From assembly GCA_913061265.1 (NCBI GenBank), contig CAJXVS010000006.1, positions 62,001 to 126,000 on the forward strand: a stretch of 64,000 nt of DNA, read 5' to 3'. The stretch comes from an uncultured Halobacteriovorax sp. (lineage in GTDB: Bacteria > Bdellovibrionota > Bacteriovoracia > Bacteriovoracales > Bacteriovoracaceae). Under the pieces are notes generated by a model. It worked only from the letters and a program-made list of their open reading frames with translations, had not been told where the DNA came from and made no database searches. Below are positions 27,735-60,006 of the stretch, in pieces. The translations under genes were made by a program, and so were the position numbers. How positions within the stretch are numbered: the stretch's first letter is position 1; each line of letters opens with the position of its first letter.

Positions 27735-30026
27735 GTGAGAAAACTTTCCTATTTAATTCTATTATTTACCCTCCTCTCTTGTTCGAGTATCGATCAAGGT
27801 AGATCCGTTAGATCCCCAGCTTCGATAGCGAAGATTTTCAATTCTTGTAAAAAAGGAATCATGAACTTCTTTGAAGGGACGACTAAAAAGAAGATCAAGT
27901 CCTCTCTTTTAAAACTTGAAGACGGTACTCCCTTAACAAGCGAAGATACAAAAAGACTTCTTAAGGTCTCCTATGAAATTCCTTTTACAGTAGATCGTGA
28001 AGGGATAGAGCAAGCGCTACTCAGCGGCTCTTCTTTAAATAAGAAACAGATCAATACTATTAGAAATTTTATCGGAAGAGATATTATGCTAGGTCATAAT
28101 ACAGACCCTACTTTGTATAAAAGGCTTCACTTTGGTGGGGATGAAAACTTCCCTATTACTTTTGGTCTTGAGTTTGAATTAAGGCTCGAAGAAGTTCCCG
28201 GAATTCTGAATTCTTATCGGCTTAAGACTTTAACTGAACAGCAGTGGTATAGCCTCGCTCTTGAAGAAAGACTAAAGCTTGCCCTAGAAGCGCAAAAGAA
28301 GAACAACGATGTTGACGATATTTTGATTAGATTACCTGGCGCTAATCCTGCCCTCCCAAAAGGCCTCTTTCCAGAACCTCATGGAACCCTAGAAGGGAAT
28401 AATATTATTTATGATAACCTAGGTGAACTCCATGAATTAGTCGCCTATATGTCAGAGCACTTCGGAAAATTTTCTTGGCAGCCCCATGTCGTCGTTGACG
28501 CCAATGCGGAGTTCAAGGGAATGGCCGGCTATACCCTCTTTGAATTTGATCGAAACCAATTAAAGACCTTAGAAAATGGTTATCAACGATACCTAAGAAA
28601 CCCAGCGGGAATTCCTTCTGCCAATCTTGTTCATTACTCTTTAGGTCCGGTTGATGAGAAGATCGCGATCAAGCTTCGTGAATCTGATGATTATTTAGAA
28701 AATGGAATCATGGAAGTTGATACTTCCGGAGTGAAGGCCGTAAGCGCCCCACACTTTAGAGTCGAGGGTCCTTATGGCAAAGGAAAGATGGGCTTTGAAT
28801 TAAGACAGTTTCATAAGCGTTATACAGACATGTTTGACGCCCTTACAAAGCTCGGCCGAGATATGAATGATCTTGGATCCCTTGGTCATTATGGAAGCTT
28901 TAAAAAGTCAGATCAGGTCTCTAAGGACACCATTAAAAACACCCTCTCTCGCTATATGATTCCTCAGGATGAAATTGATGATTTTGAGATCTTCTTCTTG
29001 GCCCTCTCTGAAGAGATCCTACAATATAATAGGGCCATGGGCGGCGGTCGCTCGGGGGCAGACTATGAACATAGACTACTCTACCCTCTTCGTAATTGGT
29101 TAGAGCATCCTATTCGAGAGTCTCTTAGCGAAGTTGAAAAAGAGGCCTTTGATGAAGTGACTAAAAAAGCTCAGCTTAAGTTTATCTCACAAGTAAGAGA
29201 GCTTATGTTAAAAAATGAGATTACTGAAGTCGATGCTAAGACCCTTGATGAGGTGAGAATCCTTATTGCAGACTGGGCCCATCAATCTAATTATAGCCGT
29301 TTCTTTGAAGACTTTAGCGACACCATAAAAGGTGAAAAAAGAGACCTAAAATATTCCTACTTACCAAATGTAAAATTCTTCGATGAGATCGGAGAGAAAA
29401 CCTATAAGTTTAAACAGGCTACGAAAAATATAAGTTATGAAAACTATCTCGATAATACAATAGAAGTCGCTTACAGAGACTTAGGTAAAACCGGACATAT
29501 GGAGTTAAGAGTTGGTCAACGCCATTACTCAATCAATGGATTTCTTTTTGGAAGTACTTCTACTTCTTCTAAGAACTTTACGGGTTTTGAGTCAGGGGCG
29601 ACAGGAAGAGTTTATAGACTTGATCGCAATAAAATAAAAGAGGCGATGGAAAAAGTCGAAGCCTTTATGGCTTCAGCTAAGAAGAATAACTTCCCTCCCT
29701 TTGACATATGGGGCTCTGATGAATTAGTTGAGCCTGTTAAAGGCGGCTTTAAGATGGTGGAGTCTAAGAACAAAGCGACAATTAAGGCCACTGTCGAAGA
29801 GATCAATGGCACTAAGTACTTTGTTAATGGTTCCGTTAAGATTCCTGTCGTTGAAAAAGAAGGTCAATATTATATAAGAACAACGAACTGTACTAGAGGT
29901 GTTACTGATATTATGAGTCAGTACTTAAACTTTGATATAGGCTCTTATGCTTCTGCTGGCATGCTTGATAACGCCTTTAAAAAAGGCTCTATAAGAAAGC
30001 CCTTTGATCTAGAAGTTCATTACTAA
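27735..30026 (+). CDS. large lipoprotein of unknown function
   Basis: 763 residues from a GTG start; lipoprotein signal MRKLSYLILLFTLLSC. No ribosome site exists and the start follows a sigma-28-like -10 by 7 bases. The segment ITFGLEFELRLEE (about residue 138) recalls the Glu-rich strand of carboxylate-amine ligases/amidoligases, with MGFELRQFHKRY later. The C-terminus has TTNCTRGVTDIMSQYL, which recalls the Cys motif of papain-like enzymes. Both likenesses are weak and unproven. It overlaps the convergent ABC ATPase gene by 4 bases. Confidence 0.72.
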   Translation: MRKLSYLILLFTLLSCSSIDQGRSVRSPASIAKIFNSCKKGIMNFFEGTTKKKIKSSLLKLEDGTPLTSEDTKRLLKVSYEIPFTVDREGIEQALLSGSSLNKKQINTIRNFIGRDIMLGHNTDPTLYKRLHFGGDENFPITFGLEFELRLEEVPGILNSYRLKTLTEQQWYSLALEERLKLALEAQKKNNDVDDILIRLPGANPALPKGLFPEPHGTLEGNNIIYDNLGELHELVAYMSEHFGKFSWQPHVVVDANAEFKGMAGYTLFEFDRNQLKTLENGYQRYLRNPAGIPSANLVHYSLGPVDEKIAIKLRESDDYLENGIMEVDTSGVKAVSAPHFRVEGPYGKGKMGFELRQFHKRYTDMFDALTKLGRDMNDLGSLGHYGSFKKSDQVSKDTIKNTLSRYMIPQDEIDDFEIFFLALSEEILQYNRAMGGGRSGADYEHRLLYPLRNWLEHPIRESLSEVEKEAFDEVTKKAQLKFISQVRELMLKNEITEVDAKTLDEVRILIADWAHQSNYSRFFEDFSDTIKGEKRDLKYSYLPNVKFFDEIGEKTYKFKQATKNISYENYLDNTIEVAYRDLGKTGHMELRVGQRHYSINGFLFGSTSTSSKNFTGFESGATGRVYRLDRNKIKEAMEKVEAFMASAKKNNFPPFDIWGSDELVEPVKGGFKMVESKNKATIKATVEEINGTKYFVNGSVKIPVVEKEGQYYIRTTNCTRGVTDIMSQYLNFDIGSYASAGMLDNAFKKGSIRKPFDLEVHY

Positions 30027-30763
30027 AGAGATTCTGGTGGCGCTATAAAGTCAGCTACAAAATCATCCACTGGATTATTTCTAATCTCTTCAGGTGTACC
30101 TTGCTGAATAATATTTCCAGCATTCATGATCACGATCTTATCACTCATAGTAAAAGCTTCAATCTGATCATGGGTCACATAGATACAAGTGATGCCAAAA
30201 TCCTGTTGAATCTTTCTAATATCCCCGCGCATCTTCTCGCGAAGCTTGGCATCAAGATTTGATAAGGGCTCGTCTAGAAGCAGAACCTTAGGCTGAGCGA
30301 CAAGTCCTCTAGCGAGGGCAACTCGCTGCTGCTGACCACCGGATAAGGCGTCGGGCATTCTTTTTTCATAACCATCGAGTTCTACGATCTTTAAGATTTC
30401 ATTCACTCTATCGTTCAACTCACTCGATGGTGTCTTGGCCACTTTTAAGGGATAGGCGACATTATCGAAAACATTCATATGGGGCCAGACCGCATAAGAT
30501 TGAAAGACCATACCGACCTTTCTTTTCTCAGGGGCCAGGATCACTTTATTATCTGGATCGGAGACTATTGAGTTATCAATCTTAATGATCCCACTAGTAT
30601 TGGTTTCAAGGCCAGAGACCATGCGCAGACAAGTCGTTTTGCCGCAACCAGAAGGCCCAAGAAAGGAGACAAAGTCGCCATCATTGATCTCTAGTGAAAA
30701 ATCATGAATAACTTTTACGTCACCGTAATTCTTTTTTACATGTTCAAAACTTACCGTACTCAT
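30023..30763 (-). CDS. ABC importer ATPase (iron/AfuC-type)
   Basis: 246 residues. Walker A GPSGCGKTT, Q-loop MVFQSYAVWPHM, signature LSGGQQQRVALARGL, Walker B VLLLDEPLSNLD and the His-switch VTHDQ are intact. It lacks the C-terminal TOBE domain (about 100 residues) that most FbpC/AfuC subunits carry. It couples ATP hydrolysis to import through the permease upstream, which it overlaps by ATGA. Confidence 0.94.
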   Translation of the reverse strand: MSTVSFEHVKKNYGDVKVIHDFSLEINDGDFVSFLGPSGCGKTTCLRMVSGLETNTSGIIKIDNSIVSDPDNKVILAPEKRKVGMVFQSYAVWPHMNVFDNVAYPLKVAKTPSSELNDRVNEILKIVELDGYEKRMPDALSGGQQQRVALARGLVAQPKVLLLDEPLSNLDAKLREKMRGDIRKIQQDFGITCIYVTHDQIEAFTMSDKIVIMNAGNIIQQGTPEEIRNNPVDDFVADFIAPPESL

Positions 30764-32433
30764 AGTCCGTACTTTCCCTTGGAGATGGTTTTAACTAAGA
30801 AGTTAATAAAGGCCACAATCCCTATTGTAAAAAGGGCTAAGACCGCTGAACCACCACCTGAGGCATCAGCGTATTCTTGTAATTGAAAGATTAAGGTCCC
30901 TAAGGTTTCAAGGCCTGGACCACTTAATAAAATAGTCATCGTCAGTTCTGAGAAGGCCGGCATAAAGACCAAGAACCAACTCGCCACTAAAGCCGGCTTC
31001 ATAAGAGGAAACCAAATTGTTTTCATTGTTGTCAGCCAGCTAGCTCCACTAACTCTAGCGGCCTCGGCAAGGACATCATCAATTTGCCCAAAGCCATCAG
31101 AGCAAGTTCTAAGAGTGAAGTTTAAATACTTAGCAATATAGGCCATGCCGATAAGATAGATTGTATTATAAAGTGGAACTCTAAAGCCTAAGATCCCGCT
31201 TGAGAAAGTTAGGATAAAGGCGAAGGCCAAGACTGTTCCTGGAGTGGCATAAGGAAGTGAGGCTAGGATATCAACAATCCCCCTCCCCTTGATCTTAGTT
31301 TTTTGAACTATATAGGCGAGAACCATTCCAAAGATAACAGCAATAGTCGCCACAGAGAAAGCTAACTTAGTTGAGTTCCAAAGCGCCCTTGGAGTTTCGT
31401 CAGTTTCAAAAAGAATCTTTTGAAAGTTTTGAAGGCCAAAGTTATCAAGAGAGAAAGTTCCCTGAACTTTAGAAAGGGCCGTCACTAAGATTCCAAAGAG
31501 CGGCATGAGAAAGAGAACCAAAAAACTAAAACCTAAAAAACCTAGAAGTGGTATCTTCCAAGGGCCTAGGTCAATCAAGCTCGGTCTTGAGGTCTTTCCT
31601 CCAACAGTTTTGAAATGCCCCTTGCTCATAATCCTCTGATTAAGCCAAAGCACTATGATGGCCAAAACTAAAAGAACAATAGAAAGAGCTCCTGCTGTAT
31701 AAGTCCCGCCAATTGAACCCATCTTCATGAAGGTATAGATCCTCGTCGTCACAAGATAGATACTGGCAGGGTTTCCAATCATGGCCGGAACACCAAAAGA
31801 AGCCGAAGCCGCCAAGAGAACTAAAAGCACCCCAGATAAAAGGGCCGGTAGAATAATAGGAATAGTAATTTGAAAAAAGACCCTAATAGGTCCTGCTCCA
31901 CTAAGCCTTGCCGCTTCTTCAAGACTAGGATCCATCCTATCTAAGGCGGCCAATAAGGAGAGAAGGACAAAGGTATAAAAAAAGCAGCTCATCACCCAGA
32001 TAAGCCCGCCGTAAGTATAAATATTAATAAAGCCTTCGCCTAAAAAGAGATTGAGAAGGCCTGTCGTGGGATTGCCTAGGTATATCCATGCGATGGCCCC
32101 AATATAAGGAGGAATAGCATAAGGAAGGCAAAACCAAGAGCGAAGCCTTGAGGCTCCTGGAATATTAGTTCTGGTTAAAAGCCAACTAAGAGGCAGGGCC
32201 ATTAGAGTTGAAAGAAAAGCCGTTCCTACAGAGACGATAACAGTATTTTTTAAGGCAAGCAGTGTTGTTTTATTATCAAAGATCGCCAAGTAGTACTTTA
32301 AATCAAACTCTCCTTTAGGGAGAGGAAAAGAGATTTTTCCGAAGAGAGTTAAAAAAGGATAGAGGCATATCAATAATAAAAATACTATTGATAGGCCTAG
32401 GATTAAAGTCGTTGAGTTGAGTTTCTTTAACAT
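30760..32433 (-). CDS. ABC importer permease, FbpB/AfuB-type fusion
   Basis: 557 residues with about 12 membrane helices in two six-helix halves, each with an EAA-type cytoplasmic loop (EEAARLSGAGPIRVFFQITIP in the first half and LAEAARVSGASWLTTM in the second). A fused double permease is usual for the ferric-iron (FbpB/AfuB) family and its relatives. It starts directly after the binding-protein stop codon. Confidence 0.93.
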   Translation of the reverse strand: MLKKLNSTTLILGLSIVFLLLICLYPFLTLFGKISFPLPKGEFDLKYYLAIFDNKTTLLALKNTVIVSVGTAFLSTLMALPLSWLLTRTNIPGASRLRSWFCLPYAIPPYIGAIAWIYLGNPTTGLLNLFLGEGFINIYTYGGLIWVMSCFFYTFVLLSLLAALDRMDPSLEEAARLSGAGPIRVFFQITIPIILPALLSGVLLVLLAASASFGVPAMIGNPASIYLVTTRIYTFMKMGSIGGTYTAGALSIVLLVLAIIVLWLNQRIMSKGHFKTVGGKTSRPSLIDLGPWKIPLLGFLGFSFLVLFLMPLFGILVTALSKVQGTFSLDNFGLQNFQKILFETDETPRALWNSTKLAFSVATIAVIFGMVLAYIVQKTKIKGRGIVDILASLPYATPGTVLAFAFILTFSSGILGFRVPLYNTIYLIGMAYIAKYLNFTLRTCSDGFGQIDDVLAEAARVSGASWLTTMKTIWFPLMKPALVASWFLVFMPAFSELTMTILLSGPGLETLGTLIFQLQEYADASGGGSAVLALFTIGIVAFINFLVKTISKGKYGL

Positions 32434-33435
32434 CTATTGAAACATGATCTCGGTATACTTCTCTTTAATATCTACTCTTGATCGAGTCACGCTATCGAGA
32501 AACTTTTTTGTCCAAGGAAAGGACTTAGCCATGATTCTTGAAAGAGGTGGTGCTCCTTTTGGTGGAGCAATGCTTGGAATCGGTGAGTACATATAAGATC
32601 TAGTCATGGCCTCTTGCCCTTCAACTGTTAGCATCCAATCAGTAAATTTCTGGGCCAGAGTACGGTCGACTCCTTTTTTATTAGTGATCGCCATCACATT
32701 AGCGTGGGTCACAACTCCATCTGAAGGAAAGATCGTTTGAAGGCGGTCATCTTTATCTTGAAACCTTAAAAGATTCTCAAGAAGAACCCAACCAACTGGT
32801 CTCTCTTTAGATTGAAGCCTACGGATAACGGCAGAGTTTCCGCCATCAGAGATTGTCTCATTGGCCTTAAGCCCTTTGATGTATTCCCATCCATAGTGAT
32901 GCTGTAGCATGGCCATAGTTGTAAAGTTTGTTCCTGAACTCAATGGACTACCAGTAGAGAACTTTCCTTTCCATTTTGGGTCCATCATTTCTTTGAAACT
33001 TTTTGGTGCTTCTTCTGGACTAACAGCTTCTCTGTTATAGGCCATTACCATAACGGGAATTGAAACTGTGGTATAAAAACCTTCAGCATGTTTCATCTGT
33101 TCGCTTATATCTTTTGTCTTTGGACTTTTATAAGCATGAAGGTTTCCATTATTAGACATCTCTTCGTACCAAAAGCGATCACTTGAAATAAGCACATCAG
33201 CTTGTAGAGCACCCGCTAAGATCTCAGATTGTACCTTCGAAGCAATATCTTCACTTCCCGCTTGGTACCATTGAAACTTAATGCCAGGAAAAGCCTTCTC
33301 AAGCCTTGGCTTTAAATCAGAGATAGTATCTTTATACATTGAGGTATAGATCCAAAGTTCGCTCTTGGAGGTATCTTCTTTTTGGCAGCTCGAAAAGATA
33401 AGCATTAAACAGGCCATGAGAGTCATAGTTTTCAT
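32434..33435 (-). CDS. ABC importer substrate-binding lipoprotein
   Basis: 333 residues from the ATG at 33435 (AAGGA upstream). The signal MKTMTLMACLMLIFSSC ends in a lipobox, so it is lipid-anchored. The body is a type 2 periplasmic binding protein (LWIYTSMYKDTISDLKPRLEKAFPGIKFQWYQAG, ADVLISSDRFW, PKWKGKFS). The twin-Tyr motif that binds ferric iron in FbpA/FutA proteins is not visible, so iron is not certain; phosphonates or polyamine-like ligands are alternatives. Its promoter carries a half-copy of the operator described at 53530. Confidence 0.88.
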   Translation of the reverse strand: MKTMTLMACLMLIFSSCQKEDTSKSELWIYTSMYKDTISDLKPRLEKAFPGIKFQWYQAGSEDIASKVQSEILAGALQADVLISSDRFWYEEMSNNGNLHAYKSPKTKDISEQMKHAEGFYTTVSIPVMVMAYNREAVSPEEAPKSFKEMMDPKWKGKFSTGSPLSSGTNFTTMAMLQHHYGWEYIKGLKANETISDGGNSAVIRRLQSKERPVGWVLLENLLRFQDKDDRLQTIFPSDGVVTHANVMAITNKKGVDRTLAQKFTDWMLTVEGQEAMTRSYMYSPIPSIAPPKGAPPLSRIMAKSFPWTKKFLDSVTRSRVDIKEKYTEIMFQ

Positions 33436-33469
33436 AAAGATTGGTCCTTTAAATAAATAAGATGCCCAA

Positions 33470-33498
33470 ATTATAGGGGCAAGCTTTTGATATGACAC
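33470..33498 (-). promoter_or_regulatory. promoter of first ABC importer with operator half-site
   Basis: Minus strand GTGTCA, 17 bases, TATAAT. The sequence GTCATATCAAAA overlapping the -35 matches the right half of the palindrome at 53530-53549. Confidence 0.5.
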
Positions 33499-53529: not shown

Positions 53530-53549
53530 TAGTTTGACATATCAAACTA
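53530..53549. promoter_or_regulatory. palindromic operator over lipoprotein promoter
   Basis: TAGTTTGACATATCAAACTA, a perfect 8-4-8 palindrome. It contains TTGACA (-35) of a promoter with TAAGTT 17 bases downstream. A near copy (18 of 20) is at 59505-59524. Confidence 0.65.
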
Positions 53550-53590
53550 CCTTCATTAAGTTGCTTAAAAACCTAATCGAGGAAAGAAAT

Positions 53591-54070
53591 ATGAAGTCCC
53601 TATGCATGGCCCTATGCCTACTATTTATCTCTAGCTGCGCTAGTAAATCAATCCACAAAGACGTCGATCAGTATAAAGAAGTAGCTGAAAGACTAATCAT
53701 GAATAACGACAAGGGAGCGGAGCCTATGGTTTTAAAGCAAGATGCTGTTGAGCTTATTAACCTCGCAAAGCCAATCCTTAAAAAATACACGGCGAAGAAC
53801 CCTCAGTGTAATGAGCTTTTAAGTCATATCATTGCTAAAAGTACTTTTATGCAAAACCTTACTCTCTCAGAGATTGAGGATAAGTTTCATGATGGAAATG
53901 GTCTGCCTAAAGCAGATGAAACTTGCTATGAACCTAAAGAATTAATAGTTCACCCATCTACAGTCGTGATCCTTTCAAAGAGCAAGCTAACAACAGAGGG
54001 AAGAGAGCAAATTAAAGATGAAATTGAAGAAGTGCTCGGGCACTTAGATATTCTTAAAGAATCACTTTAA
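53591..54070 (+). CDS. small lipoprotein of unknown function under palindromic operator
   Basis: 159 residues from ATG 53591, set by GAGGAAAG; an in-frame extension to 53510 is rejected because it crosses the promoter. Lipoprotein signal MKSLCMALCLLFISSC. Helical with two further Cys (PQCNELL, ETCYEP). No family recognised. It is monocistronic, ending in a strong terminator, and its promoter carries the same palindrome as the second ABC importer, so it may be part of the same response. Confidence 0.75.
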   Translation: MKSLCMALCLLFISSCASKSIHKDVDQYKEVAERLIMNNDKGAEPMVLKQDAVELINLAKPILKKYTAKNPQCNELLSHIIAKSTFMQNLTLSEIEDKFHDGNGLPKADETCYEPKELIVHPSTVVILSKSKLTTEGREQIKDEIEEVLGHLDILKESL

Positions 54071-54078
54071 GATCTTTC

Positions 54079-54105
54079 AGGGAGGGCAACCTCCCTTTAT
54101 TTGAG
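54079..54105 (+). terminator. Rho-independent terminator after the small lipoprotein
   Basis: Stem AGGGAGG/CCTCCCT closed by a GCAA tetraloop, followed by TTTATTT. Confidence 0.88.
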
Positions 54106-54137
54106 ACAAGCTCTCTTTTTTGCGCAAGAATAGCGTC

Positions 54138-54902
54138 ATGAAAGCAAAGTCCCCAATCCTCATCTCAGTCCCTCATTCAGGAATCAAGTTCCCTGAAGAA
54201 GTTCGTAGCTATTACAAAGATAAGACCCTTAACTCTCCAGGAGATACCGATTGGTTTATTGACCAGCTCTATAGTTTCGCCCCTGAATTAGATATAGAAA
54301 TTGTAGTCGCTCCCTATTCTCGTTACGTTATAGATCTCAATAGAGACCCTGAGAGTAAGCAGCTCTATCAAGATTCAAGACAAGAGACAGGGCTTATTCC
54401 AAGTAAAAGTTTTTCAGGCGAAGAAATACTACTTAAAGAAATTAATCAAGAAGAGGCCCAAAGAAGATTAAATGCTTATTATTGGCCTTACTATAAAATG
54501 GTTCAAGAAAAGTTAGATGAGAGGATCGAGTTGTTTTCAAAATGTCTTCTCTTTGATGCCCATTCTATTAAGCGGCTTGTACCAAAGATCTCAAAAGACC
54601 CTTTCCCCGATATGATCATCGGTGATGCTGATGAAACCTCTGCCGATAAGAGTTTAATTGATTGCGCCTTAAGAAGCTTAAAAAAAGGGCCTTTTGAAGT
54701 GGCTCATAATCACCCCTTTAAAGGTGGACATATAACGAGGTACTTTGGAAAGAAGTCCCCCTCGCAGCATGCCCTCCAATTAGAAATGAGCCAAGACCTT
54801 TATATGAATGAGGAATCAATCAAGTATGATGAAGAGAAAGCTCCTCATGTTCGAGAGGTTTTGCGAGAAATGTTCAAGTCCCTCTTAAAGGAGTTAAGTT
54901 AA
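54138..54902 (+). CDS. hutG: N-formylglutamate amidohydrolase HutG
   Basis: 254 residues from ATG 54138; an in-frame TTG 18 bases upstream is rejected. Motifs ILISVPHSGIKFP, GDTDWFID, VVAPYSRYVIDLNRDPE, LFDAHSIKR and the late QLEMSQDLYM define the family. It cleaves N-formyl-L-glutamate to glutamate and formate, the last step of the five-step histidine pathway. hutF starts at the next base after the stop. No ribosome site precedes the ATG. hutH, hutU and hutI are not in the window. Confidence 0.93.
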   Translation: MKAKSPILISVPHSGIKFPEEVRSYYKDKTLNSPGDTDWFIDQLYSFAPELDIEIVVAPYSRYVIDLNRDPESKQLYQDSRQETGLIPSKSFSGEEILLKEINQEEAQRRLNAYYWPYYKMVQEKLDERIELFSKCLLFDAHSIKRLVPKISKDPFPDMIIGDADETSADKSLIDCALRSLKKGPFEVAHNHPFKGGHITRYFGKKSPSQHALQLEMSQDLYMNEESIKYDEEKAPHVREVLREMFKSLLKELS

Positions 54903-56183
54903 ATGAAAGTTTATAGGTTTGATAATATTCTTTTAAAGACAGGCTGGACTGAAGAGATCTACATAACTGTAGATGATGAAAAAGTTATTCAAAAGATTGA
55001 GACGACTCTACCTGAAGAAGAGATCTTTCCGAAAGAAGGTTACTTAATACCTGGCTTTCAAAACGCTCACTCTCATGCGTTTCAATATGCAATGGCCGGA
55101 ATTAACGAAGGGCTTAGCCCCGAAGCTAAGTCAGATGACTTCTGGAGCTGGCGTGAAAATATGTATTCCATTGCCTTAAAGATTAGCCCAGAAGAATTAG
55201 AGCAGGTGGCCACTGATCTTTATATCGAAATGGTCCGTCATGGTTATACTCACGTTGCTGAGTTTCATTATCTTCACCATGACTTTGAAGGAAATCCATA
55301 TGAGAACTTAAGTGAGATGAGTGAAAGGCTTATGAACGCTTCTGTAGCTGCGGGAATCTCTTTAACAATCATCCCCATGTTCTACCAAGTTGGAGGTTTC
55401 AACCTAGATGCCAACCCTAAGCAAAGACGCTTTATTTCTCAAACAGTTGATGAGTACCTCAACTTATTTGAAGAAGTTCAAAAAGCTTCAGAGAACTACA
55501 ATAACGTAAATGTGGGCATTGGCGTTCATTCCTTAAGAGCGGTAAAGCCTGAAGATATCATTAGTCTTTTCAAAAAGGCCCCCGCAGATATTCCTAAACA
55601 TCTTCATATCAGTGAACAAGAACAAGAGGTCAGAGATTGTGTGTCTCACTTAGGTAAAAGACCCGTAGAGTGGCTTTTAGAAAATGTAAACTTAGATGAA
55701 AACTTTCACTTAGTTCATGCTACTCATATTAACAAAGAAGAATTAGAAGGCATCATCAAGACAGGGGCTAATATTGTTTTATGCCCCAGTACCGAAGGCA
55801 ACCTAGGAGATGGGCTCTTTCCTCTTCTTGAATTCTTTAAAAAAGGTGGAGAATTCTCCATAGGAACAGATTCTCATATAGGACTAAGCCCTATGGAAGA
55901 ACTGCGTTGGCTTGATTATACCGTTCGCTTAATAGAAAAATCGAGAAACCCTCTATGCTTAAACGCTGGAGATTATAGTGGAGATATTCTCTATCATATG
56001 GCCTATCAGACAGGCCTTAAGGCCATGGGAGTCACGAAGGAAGATTACTTTGAGGTAGGAGAGAAGCTAAAAGGTTATTTGATAACTAAAGATAATACGC
56101 TTTTTAAGAACAAGCCTATTGAACACGTTCTTGGAACCTTAATTTATTCTGGTGGACCAGAGCATCTTGAAAGGCTTATTTAA
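54903..56183 (+). CDS. hutF: formimidoylglutamate deiminase HutF
   Basis: 426 residues. An amidohydrolase with the His56-His58 metal pair in GFQNAHSHAFQYAMAG, then HLHISEQEQEV (His), HATHI and the terminal metal Asp in IGTDSHIGLSP. HutF converts N-formimidoyl-L-glutamate to N-formyl-L-glutamate and ammonia, feeding HutG. Its presence means histidine is degraded by the five-step route. It overlaps the convergent ABC ATPase gene by 8 bases. Confidence 0.93.
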   Translation: MKVYRFDNILLKTGWTEEIYITVDDEKVIQKIETTLPEEEIFPKEGYLIPGFQNAHSHAFQYAMAGINEGLSPEAKSDDFWSWRENMYSIALKISPEELEQVATDLYIEMVRHGYTHVAEFHYLHHDFEGNPYENLSEMSERLMNASVAAGISLTIIPMFYQVGGFNLDANPKQRRFISQTVDEYLNLFEEVQKASENYNNVNVGIGVHSLRAVKPEDIISLFKKAPADIPKHLHISEQEQEVRDCVSHLGKRPVEWLLENVNLDENFHLVHATHINKEELEGIIKTGANIVLCPSTEGNLGDGLFPLLEFFKKGGEFSIGTDSHIGLSPMEELRWLDYTVRLIEKSRNPLCLNAGDYSGDILYHMAYQTGLKAMGVTKEDYFEVGEKLKGYLITKDNTLFKNKPIEHVLGTLIYSGGPEHLERLI

Positions 56184-56871
56184 TAAAAGAATCGATCTTA
56201 GATCTCTTCTCTTTTAAGTACTCAAAGACTTCTGGAATATTTCGATAATGATCAGTTTGATAGCTTCCATCACAATTCATTAAAGTGATTCGGTCACTAA
56301 GCTCAGCAGCCTCTTCAATTGAATGAGTCACAAGCAGTGTGGTTAGTTTCATCTTTGTAGAAATTTCTTTAATCTCACTGCGAAGTTCCTCTCTGAGTCC
56401 TTGATCTAAACTTGAAAAAGGCTCATCAAGAAGAAGCAGCTTAGGCCTTGTTGCTAATGTTCTAGCGATGGCCACTCTCTGTTGCTCTCCACCAGAGAGT
56501 TCATTGGGGTATTTCTTTCTTTTATCTTCAAGTTTGATCATTGAGAGGTACTTATCAATTTCATCCCCCTTCATGGCATACTTTATATTTTCTTCGACAT
56601 TCATATGAGGAAAAAGGCAATTTTCTTGAAAGACAATACCTATCTCACGGCGCTCACTAGGAATACCTTCCATAGAGACTTCATTAACGAGGATCTTTCC
56701 AGAATTAGGATTTAAGAAACCAGCAATTAAATGCAGGATAGTTGATTTTCCACAACCACTCTTTCCGAGAAGTGAATGAAACTCATTTTCTTCAAGACTT
56801 AGAGAGAAGTCCTCAAGGACTTTTATCTTTTCGTAATTAAATGTTAGGTCTTCTATTCTTAAATAGCTCAT
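56176..56871 (-). CDS. second iron-type ABC importer ATPase, short form
   Basis: 231 residues. Walker A GKSGCGKST, Q-loop IVFQENCLFPHM, signature LSGGEQQRVAIARTL, Walker B LLLLDEPFSSLD and His-switch VTHSIEE are intact. No TOBE domain follows, so it ends about 100 residues earlier than standard FbpC. Last gene of the operon, overlapping the permease by ATGA. Confidence 0.93.
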   Translation of the reverse strand: MSYLRIEDLTFNYEKIKVLEDFSLSLEENEFHSLLGKSGCGKSTILHLIAGFLNPNSGKILVNEVSMEGIPSERREIGIVFQENCLFPHMNVEENIKYAMKGDEIDKYLSMIKLEDKRKKYPNELSGGEQQRVAIARTLATRPKLLLLDEPFSSLDQGLREELRSEIKEISTKMKLTTLLVTHSIEEAAELSDRITLMNCDGSYQTDHYRNIPEVFEYLKEKRSKIDSFIK

Positions 56872-58445
56872 TTTTTATTTATAACCTTCTCACTAATATA
56901 AAGAGAAACCGCGCCCAAGGCTATGAGAAAAAGTGCACTGATTGATGCTCTCTCCCACTCTCCTTCAGAGGTTAATTCATAGACTCTTGTTGCCAGGGTA
57001 TTCACTCCAAAGGGTCTTAATATCAAAGTGATTGGCATCTCTTTAAAGACTTCTATCAAAACTAAAACAAAAGATGAAAGTAAAACCGGCTTTAAAAGCG
57101 GCAATTGAACCTTAAAAAAAGTAAAGCCCGTGGACTTGCCTAGAGAGATTGAAGACCAATCCATCTTCTTAGAAATTCCTGACATACCTCTGGCCATAAG
57201 CTCTGAGGGAACTGAGTAAAACTTTATCAAATAGGCTAAGAACAAAGCTAATAGAGATAAAAGACCTGAATAACTTATATTAACGGTTGAGAAAAAGGCC
57301 ATAATACTGACGGCCACAATACTTCCAGGAATAGCATAACCTAGCTTTGTAATAGGTAGGATTGAATTTTCTCTAGCCCCAAATTTAAACCTTTGAAAAT
57401 ACAGAAAAAGTAGACTGATAAAATTTATTGAAAAAGCAACGACGCTTCCTATAATGAGAGTTTCTCCTATCAAGAGAAAATAGTCGCTATCAAGCTCTAC
57501 CTTTATAGCTTCAAGGGACCAAATCAATAATTGAGATACAGGAAAGAAAACAGAGAAGGCAGCATAGGTTATAACTAAAAGATAAACGATCTTTTTACTC
57601 AATCCTTTTAATTCTAGTAGGATGATATCTTCTTGAAGCTTAGACTTCCCTTCTTTAACTCTAAATTTATACTGGCTAATCAAGTACAAGATTAAGGCAA
57701 AAACTGTTGGAAACAAGCTTAGCTTTACTGCCGTATTGATTGAGAAGAGGCTTATCCAAGCGTGATAGATAGCTGTCGAGAATGTCTCATAATTGAAAAC
57801 TGATACGCCCCCGAAGTCACAAAAGACTTCAAGGCAAACAAGTATTCCCCCTGAGAGTAACCAGGGTAGGGCTTGAGGAAAAACAATTGTTCGAGCAATT
57901 TGATTTGGAGTCTTTCCTAATGACCTCGCGCTCAAAAAAAGCTTTCTATCCATAGCTCCAAAACATGATTTTAAATACAAATAGATGTAAGGACTAAGAG
58001 CAAGAGAGAAGACAAAGGCCACTCCTAAGACAGACTTAATATCAATATAGCTTAGGATATTTATTCCGAGGTTATTTCTTATAAACGAGGGAATAAGCCC
58101 ACTATATTCCAAGCTTCCAACGTAAACAAAACCTAAAACATAGAGAGGAAAGATGAGAGGCATCACAAATAAAAGATGAAGCGCTCCTTTGTGTTTAATA
58201 TTTGAGAAACTAATTAAGTAAGCTTGTGAAAAACCTAGAAGACTTGAGAATAAAACTGTGAGGAAAGCTAAAAGAATTGTATCTCTAGTTAAGTCCCACA
58301 ACATTGAATCGAGAATATAGGCCCAGGTTTCCTGATCTGATAGGCTTCCGCTAAAAAAAGATTGGCCCAATATAAAAATGATTGGGCCAAAGATAAAAAA
58401 GAGAAATAATAAGAGGTAAGCCTTATAGCTTAAATGCCTGAGCAT
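56868..58445 (-). CDS. second iron-type ABC importer permease (FbpB-like)
   Basis: 525 residues with about 12 membrane helices in two halves. The cytoplasmic EAA-type loops read ARSLGKTPNQIARTIVFPQ in the first half and MSGISKKMDWSSISLGKS (less conserved) in the second. Its layout is that of FbpB. It overlaps both neighbours (TAATG with the binding protein, ATGA with the ATPase). Confidence 0.92.
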   Translation of the reverse strand: MLRHLSYKAYLLLFLFFIFGPIIFILGQSFFSGSLSDQETWAYILDSMLWDLTRDTILLAFLTVLFSSLLGFSQAYLISFSNIKHKGALHLLFVMPLIFPLYVLGFVYVGSLEYSGLIPSFIRNNLGINILSYIDIKSVLGVAFVFSLALSPYIYLYLKSCFGAMDRKLFLSARSLGKTPNQIARTIVFPQALPWLLSGGILVCLEVFCDFGGVSVFNYETFSTAIYHAWISLFSINTAVKLSLFPTVFALILYLISQYKFRVKEGKSKLQEDIILLELKGLSKKIVYLLVITYAAFSVFFPVSQLLIWSLEAIKVELDSDYFLLIGETLIIGSVVAFSINFISLLFLYFQRFKFGARENSILPITKLGYAIPGSIVAVSIMAFFSTVNISYSGLLSLLALFLAYLIKFYSVPSELMARGMSGISKKMDWSSISLGKSTGFTFFKVQLPLLKPVLLSSFVLVLIEVFKEMPITLILRPFGVNTLATRVYELTSEGEWERASISALFLIALGAVSLYISEKVINKK

Positions 58446-59437
58446 TACTTATAGCGAACTTCTCTCATTAACTTAATAGCATCCTTTTGTAGGACTCCAG
58501 CATTTGAGAGGTTAAAGCTCTTATTAGGTTTAAAGCTTCCCCATGATTTGGTTACTTTTGATTCAGGAAATAAATTATTGATTGGATATTCCATATTAAC
58601 TTGAGCAAATGATTTCTGAGCAGTCCTACTTGAAAGCCACTCTATCAGTTTTCTAGCTTCGTCTTTATTTTTTGAAGTCTTTAATACTCCAGCTCCAGAG
58701 ACATTTACATGAACTCCATAACTATTTTCTTGATTTGGCCAAAAAAGTTTAAGCGGTAACTTTGGAGACTTCTTCATCAGCCTTCCATAATAATAAGTAT
58801 TAACAATGCCAGCATCACATTGTCCTGCAGCTACGGCCTTAAGAACTGCTGTATCATTAGGAAATATTTCAACAGTGTTATTGACCCAGCCCTTTACAAC
58901 AGCTTTAGCTTTATTACTTCCAAGCTCTGAGATCAACATGGCCACAAGAGATTGGTTATAAACTTTTTTAGAAGTCCTAAGACAAAGTCTTCCCTTCCAT
59001 TTTGAATCAGCTAATCCTTCGTATGAAGTGAGCTCACCCTTAGCTACTTTTGATGTGTTAAAAGCGATGGTTCTTGCTCTTACTGAAAGACCAAACCATC
59101 TTCCTTTTTCATCTCTTAGGTTAAAGGGAACATTCTTTCTAAGTTTATTAGAGCTGATTGATTCTAATAACCCTTCCTTCCCAGCAAACCAAAGGTTCCC
59201 AGCATCGACGGTCATAAAGATATCCGCTGGAGACTTCTCTCCTTCAGCCTTGATACTTTGAATAAGAGCAGCTGCTTTACCCGTCTTATAGACAACCTTT
59301 ACGCCTGTCTCGATGGTGTATTGCTTAAAGATATCTTTAATGAGGTGCTCTTTTCTTGAAGTATAGACAACCACATCTTTGGCAAAAGTATTGAGGCAAA
59401 AGAGGATGGGAAAAATGACAGCGATATATTTTAACAT
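58445..59437 (-). CDS. ferric-iron binding protein (FbpA/FutA-like)
   Basis: 330 residues; AAGGAG precedes the ATG. Signal peptide MLKYIAVIFPILFCLNTFA. The body is a periplasmic ferric-binding protein: VVVYTSRKEHLIKDIFKQYT, DIFMTVDAGNLW, KWKGRLCLR and GIVNTYYYGRL, whose adjacent Tyr are the iron ligands of FbpA/FutA. The substrate is therefore probably Fe3+. It heads the operon and is preceded by a promoter overlapping two copies of the shared palindrome. Confidence 0.93.
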   Translation of the reverse strand: MLKYIAVIFPILFCLNTFAKDVVVYTSRKEHLIKDIFKQYTIETGVKVVYKTGKAAALIQSIKAEGEKSPADIFMTVDAGNLWFAGKEGLLESISSNKLRKNVPFNLRDEKGRWFGLSVRARTIAFNTSKVAKGELTSYEGLADSKWKGRLCLRTSKKVYNQSLVAMLISELGSNKAKAVVKGWVNNTVEIFPNDTAVLKAVAAGQCDAGIVNTYYYGRLMKKSPKLPLKLFWPNQENSYGVHVNVSGAGVLKTSKNKDEARKLIEWLSSRTAQKSFAQVNMEYPINNLFPESKVTKSWGSFKPNKSFNLSNAGVLQKDAIKLMREVRYK

Positions 59438-59471
59438 TTGGTTCTCCTTTTAAACTTTATCTAATAATAGG

Positions 59472-59500
59472 TTTCTACTCAGGGTAGTCGCCATTGTCAA
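59472..59500 (-). promoter_or_regulatory. promoter of second ABC importer
   Basis: Minus strand TTGACA, 17 bases, TAGAAA. The -35 lies in the first of two palindromes at 59496-59524. Confidence 0.5.
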
Positions 59501-59524
59501 ACCATTGTTTGACATATGAAACTA
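59496..59524. promoter_or_regulatory. double palindromic operator at iron importer
   Basis: GTCAAAC-CATT-GTTTGAC runs directly into TTGTTTGACATATGAAACTA, which matches the palindrome at 53530 at 18 of 20 positions. The half-boxes are spaced about 10-11 bases apart, on one face of the helix. It overlaps the -35 of the importer operon. Confidence 0.65.
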
Positions 59525-59634: not shown

Positions 59635-59679
59635 AATAAAAAGGCCTCGGATACCAAGGTCTTCTCCCTTGGTCCCGAG
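59635..59679 (-). terminator. Rho-independent terminator after small exported protein
   Basis: A long stem (CTCGG and ACCAAGG pairing with CCTTGGT and CCGAG, small bulge) followed on the minus strand by TTTTTATTCTT. Confidence 0.88.
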
Positions 59680-59697: not shown

Positions 59698-60006
59698 TTA
59701 ATCAAAGGTGATCACATCATTTCTATCTTTAACGAGAATTCCAGAGAACTCACCGCCAAAACGATAGAGGCAATGATCATGGTAACCAGCCTCGTATTGA
59801 ACAGTGCTTTCTTCGATTTCATTTTTAGTTAGTGGGCATAGTGCATGCTCATTGATGACATCAATGCTTACTTTATAAAAACAAACATCTCCCATCTTTC
59901 TAACAGATTCAATGCTTCCCATTACTTGAGCTTCGTAAGTATTACACTCAGAACTATGAGCGCTTAAGCCTAAAAGTAAAAAGGCGGTCGTGATTAAGAT
60001 TTTCAT
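59698..60006 (-). CDS. small exported protein of unknown function
   Basis: 102 residues; AAGGAG precedes the ATG. Signal peptide MKILITTAFLLLGLSAHS. The mature part has four Cys (ECNTYEA, DVCFYKV, ALCPLTK, DHCLYRF), enough for two disulfides, and beta-strand character. No family recognised. It has its own terminator, so it is a single-gene unit between the molybdoenzyme and the iron importer. Confidence 0.78.
   Translation of the reverse strand: MKILITTAFLLLGLSAHSSECNTYEAQVMGSIESVRKMGDVCFYKVSIDVINEHALCPLTKNEIEESTVQYEAGYHDHCLYRFGGEFSGILVKDRNDVITFD

Follow-up and report, generated by a model that had tools for sequence, protein, structure and literature searches.

In Corynebacterium and Mycobacterium, the iron-starvation regulon is governed by DtxR and IdeR instead of Fur, and these proteins recognize operators that conform to a 19-base TTAGG-type consensus. 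MntR of Bacillus subtilis has a two-domain layout without an SH3 domain and acts on manganese genes. The iron-sparing response of Bacillus includes the Fur-controlled small proteins FbpA/B/C. Bacteria that prey on other bacteria are numerous in the family Bacteriovoracaceae. An incomplete search of the literature found neither a described iron regulon for Bacteriovorax or Bdellovibrio nor a relevant paper that prints the box described here. The reading favored here, to which we assign a probability of about 0.72, is that this palindromic box is an iron-starvation operator of the family which would be read by an Fe(II)-dependent DtxR/MntR-like repressor.

Operator sites in the window

The window is the whole 64,000-nucleotide stretch of DNA that was analyzed, from an uncultured Halobacteriovorax sp. 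The 20-base dyad TAGTTTGACATATCAAACTA is located at 53530-53549 and is matched at 18 of 20 positions by TTGTTTGACATATGAAACTA at 59505-59524, exactly where the original prediction had placed the two copies. The abutting dyad GTCAAAC-CATT-GTTTGAC at 59496-59513, which it also described, is present in the sequence. The core of the box is GTTTGA-N4-TCAAAC. As 100 dinucleotide shuffles of the window gave no match with up to three mismatches, the two palindromes are real and beyond chance. The features of the two loci are as follows.

53532..53547, plus strand: operator core GTTTGACATATCAAAC before the lipoprotein gene (sequence and shuffles; kept before orthologues)
53534..53539, plus strand: probable -35 TTGACA of the lipoprotein promoter, within the box
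53557-53562, plus strand: weak -10 TAAGTT of the probable lipoprotein promoter (TATTTT in congeners at the same 17-base spacing)
53591..54070, plus strand: small lipoprotein of 159 aa (14 homologues in 124 genomes)
56176..56871, minus strand: ATPase of the iron-type importer (sequence and operon layout)
56868..58445, minus strand: two-part permease of the iron-type importer (sequence and operon layout)
58445..59437, minus strand: periplasmic solute-binding protein of the iron-type ABC importer
59500 down to 59495 and 59477 down to 59472, minus strand: probable importer promoter, -35 TTGACA and -10 TAGAAA
59496..59513, no strand: second, overlapping dyad with the probable -35 of the importer (conserved block in three species)
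59507..59522, no strand: operator core GTTTGACATATGAAAC upstream of the importer operon, with one mismatch (identical in two congeners)

The expectation that each box contains a -35 TTGACA is borne out at the lipoprotein. At the importer, the TTGACA within the box (59510-59515) faces away from the operon, and the -35-like hexamer of the importer itself lies inside the abutting dyad. A 36-base block that holds both dyads is conserved at the importer in three species in which the flanks diverge. The region around the importer promoter has no Rfam match. Just upstream of this promoter, a strong hairpin followed by a T-run is present on the minus strand at 59646-59679, and is probably the terminator of a 102-aa gene at 59698-60006.

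The lipoprotein has no Pfam or NCBIfam match, and no phage DNA resembling its region was found. Fifteen genes for it are present in 124 genomes when that of the window is included, the other 14 products being 26-70% identical. A clear box, defined as having no more than two mismatches over the 12 core positions, is located 35-60 bases before the start codon in nine of the 15 genes and further upstream in two more. Its placement relative to the promoter varies. In one set of orthologues (L252-L254) the -35 TTGACA is within the box; in another (L259) the promoter-like pair TTGACC-16-TAAATT is upstream of the box, which would then cover the transcription start site. A position that shifts in this way, covering either the -35 or the start site depending on the gene, is expected of a repressor operator and not of a site for a fixed-position activator.

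The original prediction placed a half-site over the -35 of a first importer (30023-33498) and proposed that one repressor controls both ABC importers and the lipoprotein. The half-site is literally present, as GTCATATCAAAA on the minus strand from 33496 down to 33485. However, even in its best alignment, near 33490, it departs from the 16-base core at four positions, and the orthologous first importers of two congeners (82% identical protein) offer nothing better than five or six mismatches. The half-site is treated as chance for these reasons and is rejected as an operator element. Thus, the proposal of shared control is supported for the lipoprotein and the importer at 56176-59437, but not for the first importer.

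Distribution and targets of the box

With up to one mismatch to the 16-base core of the lipoprotein site, a match occurs in 81 of 129 Bacteriovoracaceae genomes and few matches occur in the reversed control; the exact 16-mer is found 37 times compared to once in the control. A search at the level of the class pointed again to this family, and the named relatives are Halobacteriovorax, Bacteriovorax and Bacteriovoracaceae MAGs. The core GTTTGAYNNRTCAAAC occurs 165 times in the 129 genomes, against 12 in the reversed control, whereas 240 genomes from the remaining families of the phylum are not enriched in it (21 against 17 in the control). Accordingly, the operator is specific to the Bacteriovoracaceae. 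The 16-base form GTTTGATATGTCAAAC has 75 matches in viral contigs, of which chance should account for many, given the size of the collection. The genome of the window contains four good copies, at the lipoprotein, the iron-type ABC importer, a 44-aa open reading frame and a 109-aa secreted protein. The looser pattern GTTTGANNNNTCAAAC, with one mismatch, gave 23 sites in this genome and 29 in the reversed control, so weaker sites in it cannot be called.

The surroundings of 60 sites in relatives were read over ~8 kb. On one side or both, an open reading frame starts no more than 120 bases away at 53 of 58 non-palindromic sites, those of the window genome included, and most boxes aim their TTGACA at a gene. 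Downstream genes identified by Pfam encode FeoA, a Bfd-type ferredoxin, fumarase C (FumC) and TonB receptors, as well as ChaN haem-binding, MauG, PepSY, solute-binding, DUF6607 and DUF7453 proteins. As FeoA, Bfd, FumC, TonB receptors, ChaN, MauG and PepSY are typical of iron starvation, the association of the box with a regulon for iron uptake and iron sparing is well supported. The original prediction had named as unfavorable outcomes a box that is common without link to promoters or is absent before orthologous genes; instead, the box is tied to promoters and to iron genes, and is kept upstream of orthologues. In relatives, uncharacterized proteins (DUF6607, DUF7453 and Kelch-repeat secreted proteins) recur directly behind the box (L136:4027-4926, L171:5525-6583, L136:2732-3898, L123:4087-5961) and are thereby linked with the iron response. 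A perfect box lies upstream of the 109-aa secreted protein on contig 4 (L082:8281-8607, minus strand), which is not matched in Pfam.

The remaining copy in the window genome precedes a microprotein gene.

L406:1504-1635, minus strand (C4:32157-32291, contig 4): 44-aa open reading frame adjoining metG, with the box upstream

The microprotein family has the pattern M[IV][IV][RQ]N[CS]xxLLxxLxxLE and a length of about 44-67 aa, with relatives in L398-L426. A profile (A2) built from six seeds that were first noticed through the box matches in 41 of 124 genomes. The box, with up to two core mismatches, is located 26-66 bases upstream in 28 of the 30 loci read. Because the six seeds had been picked through the box, so had some of these 28; the others had not. 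The box is missing from two loci, one of them a decayed fragment and the other an internal match within a large frame. For comparison, this level is reached at only 10 starts out of 394 for other genes of these and related loci. On these counts, the most faithful target of the box is this undescribed microprotein of ~50 residues. It is predicted with moderate confidence to form two helices, and lacks a significant Pfam or PDB match. Its gene is located just after an nfu-like gene in several genera, and its promoter is probably upstream of the box. FbpA/B/C are likewise tiny proteins induced by iron starvation, an analogy drawn from general knowledge of these proteins and not from sequence comparison.

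The candidate regulator

As originally noted, the box conforms to no consensus of Fur, FNR or ModE. Although a Fur regulon would comprise nearly the same set of targets, the box is unlike the well-known Fur box. Moreover, the only Fur-family gene of the window genome is placed in a znuABC-like operon (L237:5180-7862, C1) and for that reason looks Zur-like, so that an iron-responsive Fur is apparently absent here. No Fur match was found in the complete congener (G037), nor in G021, G053 and G095, and all four genomes have boxes. On these grounds Fur is unlikely and was rejected as the regulator. A DtxR/MntR-like protein is the more probable reader of the box.

L235:5742-6254, minus strand, contig 3: DtxR/MntR-like protein of 171 aa, candidate regulator

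Proteins of this type occur in 71 of 72 good genomes, usually in single copy, and are 59-86% identical to that of the window genome with a nearly invariant helix-turn-helix. The candidate combines an N-terminal winged helix-turn-helix with an Fe_dep_repr_C domain (PF02742) in a DtxR-type fold. MntR, DtxR and IdeR are its best structure matches, both by sequence and by predicted fold, with MntR proteins the closest solved relatives by sequence and the best profile match. Cys107, Glu110 and His111, which are invariant in alignment A1, align with the iron ligands Cys102, Glu105 and His106 of DtxR, the roles of metal ligands in DtxR and MntR being taken from published work (PMC4805248). The protein therefore shares with DtxR and IdeR the fold and the Cys-Glu-His primary iron site. 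In contrast, features of the DtxR/IdeR subfamily are missing: His14 occupies the position of Met10 in DtxR (Asp8 in MntR), the ancillary ligands are lacking and no SH3-like domain is present C-terminally in the 171 aa. The box also is not of the TTAGG type. Because of His14 and the missing ancillary ligands, the selectivity for iron is not certain. Neither does the candidate belong within the MntR subfamily, as the manganese ligands Asp8, Glu11, His77 and Glu99 are replaced by His14, Leu17, Arg84 and Cys107, and the NCBIfam MntR score is 60 bits compared to a cut-off of 138.

Among 79 regions upstream of DtxR-like genes, which are related sequences, a perfect core, GTTTGATAGATCAAAC, is present in two species and a core with one mismatch in a third. 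The half-site GTTTGAC is found in 26 of the 79 regions compared to 0.8 in shuffles, counts that are not independent as the sequences are related and the half-site overlaps a possible -35. Most DtxR-like genes, that of the window genome included, have no full box upstream, and some genomes of the family encode the protein with few or no boxes. A further stretch, GCAA-N-AAATA-N-TT-N-TCGTTTGAC or similar, is conserved in the DtxR-like promoter ~40 bases before the start codon in many genera (L282-L361). If the box is an iron operator, it is quite probable that the DtxR-like protein reads it, although this link is the weakest step of the explanation.

An operator of an iron regulon read instead by an Rrf2 protein (a RirA/IscR-like iron-sulfur sensor) or by a helix-turn-helix protein of another family is an unlikely alternative. 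Rrf2 proteins are distributed just as universally as the DtxR-like protein, and the screen for regulators covered the Fur, Rrf2 and DtxR families. However, a box within three mismatches was found at none of 20 Rrf2 loci, most of which are IscR-like or beside a truncated globin gene, whereas the DtxR-like gene itself is boxed in some species. Furthermore, boxes are numerous in G034, a complete genome of the family, but its single Rrf2 match is a weaker one. Rrf2 proteins of the IscR/RirA type were rejected as regulator on the absence of boxes at the 20 loci. It is still less probable that the DtxR-like protein reads the box but responds to manganese, or to manganese and iron alike, with the iron genes forming part of a manganese and iron balance. 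The MntR proteins among its closest solved relatives and the shared absence of an SH3 domain speak for that view; on the other hand, the box marks iron genes (FeoA, Bfd, TonB, ChaN and FumC) and not manganese genes, the targets of MntR in B. subtilis, and the residue equivalent to Glu99 of MntR is a cysteine, as in iron-responsive DtxR. That the box is merely a strong promoter consensus shared by chance, as the TTGACA within it and its usual aim at a gene might suggest, is very improbable and was rejected, since the right half TCAAAC is conserved as well as the left, the position shifts such that the promoter is upstream of the box in some lipoprotein orthologues and probably also at the microprotein, and the box is confined to one family and to iron genes.

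A proposed iron response in the Bacteriovoracaceae

In the favored explanation, the box GTTTGA-N4-TCAAAC would serve as operator for a regulon of iron starvation that is confined to the Bacteriovoracaceae. Its repressor would depend on metal and is most likely the DtxR/MntR-like protein of 171 aa; with ample Fe(II) it would occupy the box and obstruct RNA polymerase, either at the -35 or at the -10 and start site. Under iron scarcity it would leave, allowing expression of TonB receptors and importers, FeoA, Bfd, FumC, the ~50-aa microprotein and the lipoprotein. That the DtxR-like protein binds the box, that Fe(II) is the signal and that the genes are repressed is inferred here from sequence comparisons. 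A broader account, in which a two-domain DtxR/MntR-like repressor with a private operator replaces Fur in the iron response of the family and the core output includes a microprotein that spares iron or protects Fe-S clusters, is put forward tentatively and at somewhat less than even odds. The new elements would be DtxR-family iron control through a private operator, with the regulator as presumed above, and a new microprotein target. If the explanation is correct, the predatory Bacteriovoracaceae gain an iron regulon with a readable operator, a DtxR-type protein would act in the role of Fur in a Gram-negative lineage, and the box would be a marker for new iron-response genes, including a microprotein family without a Pfam match.
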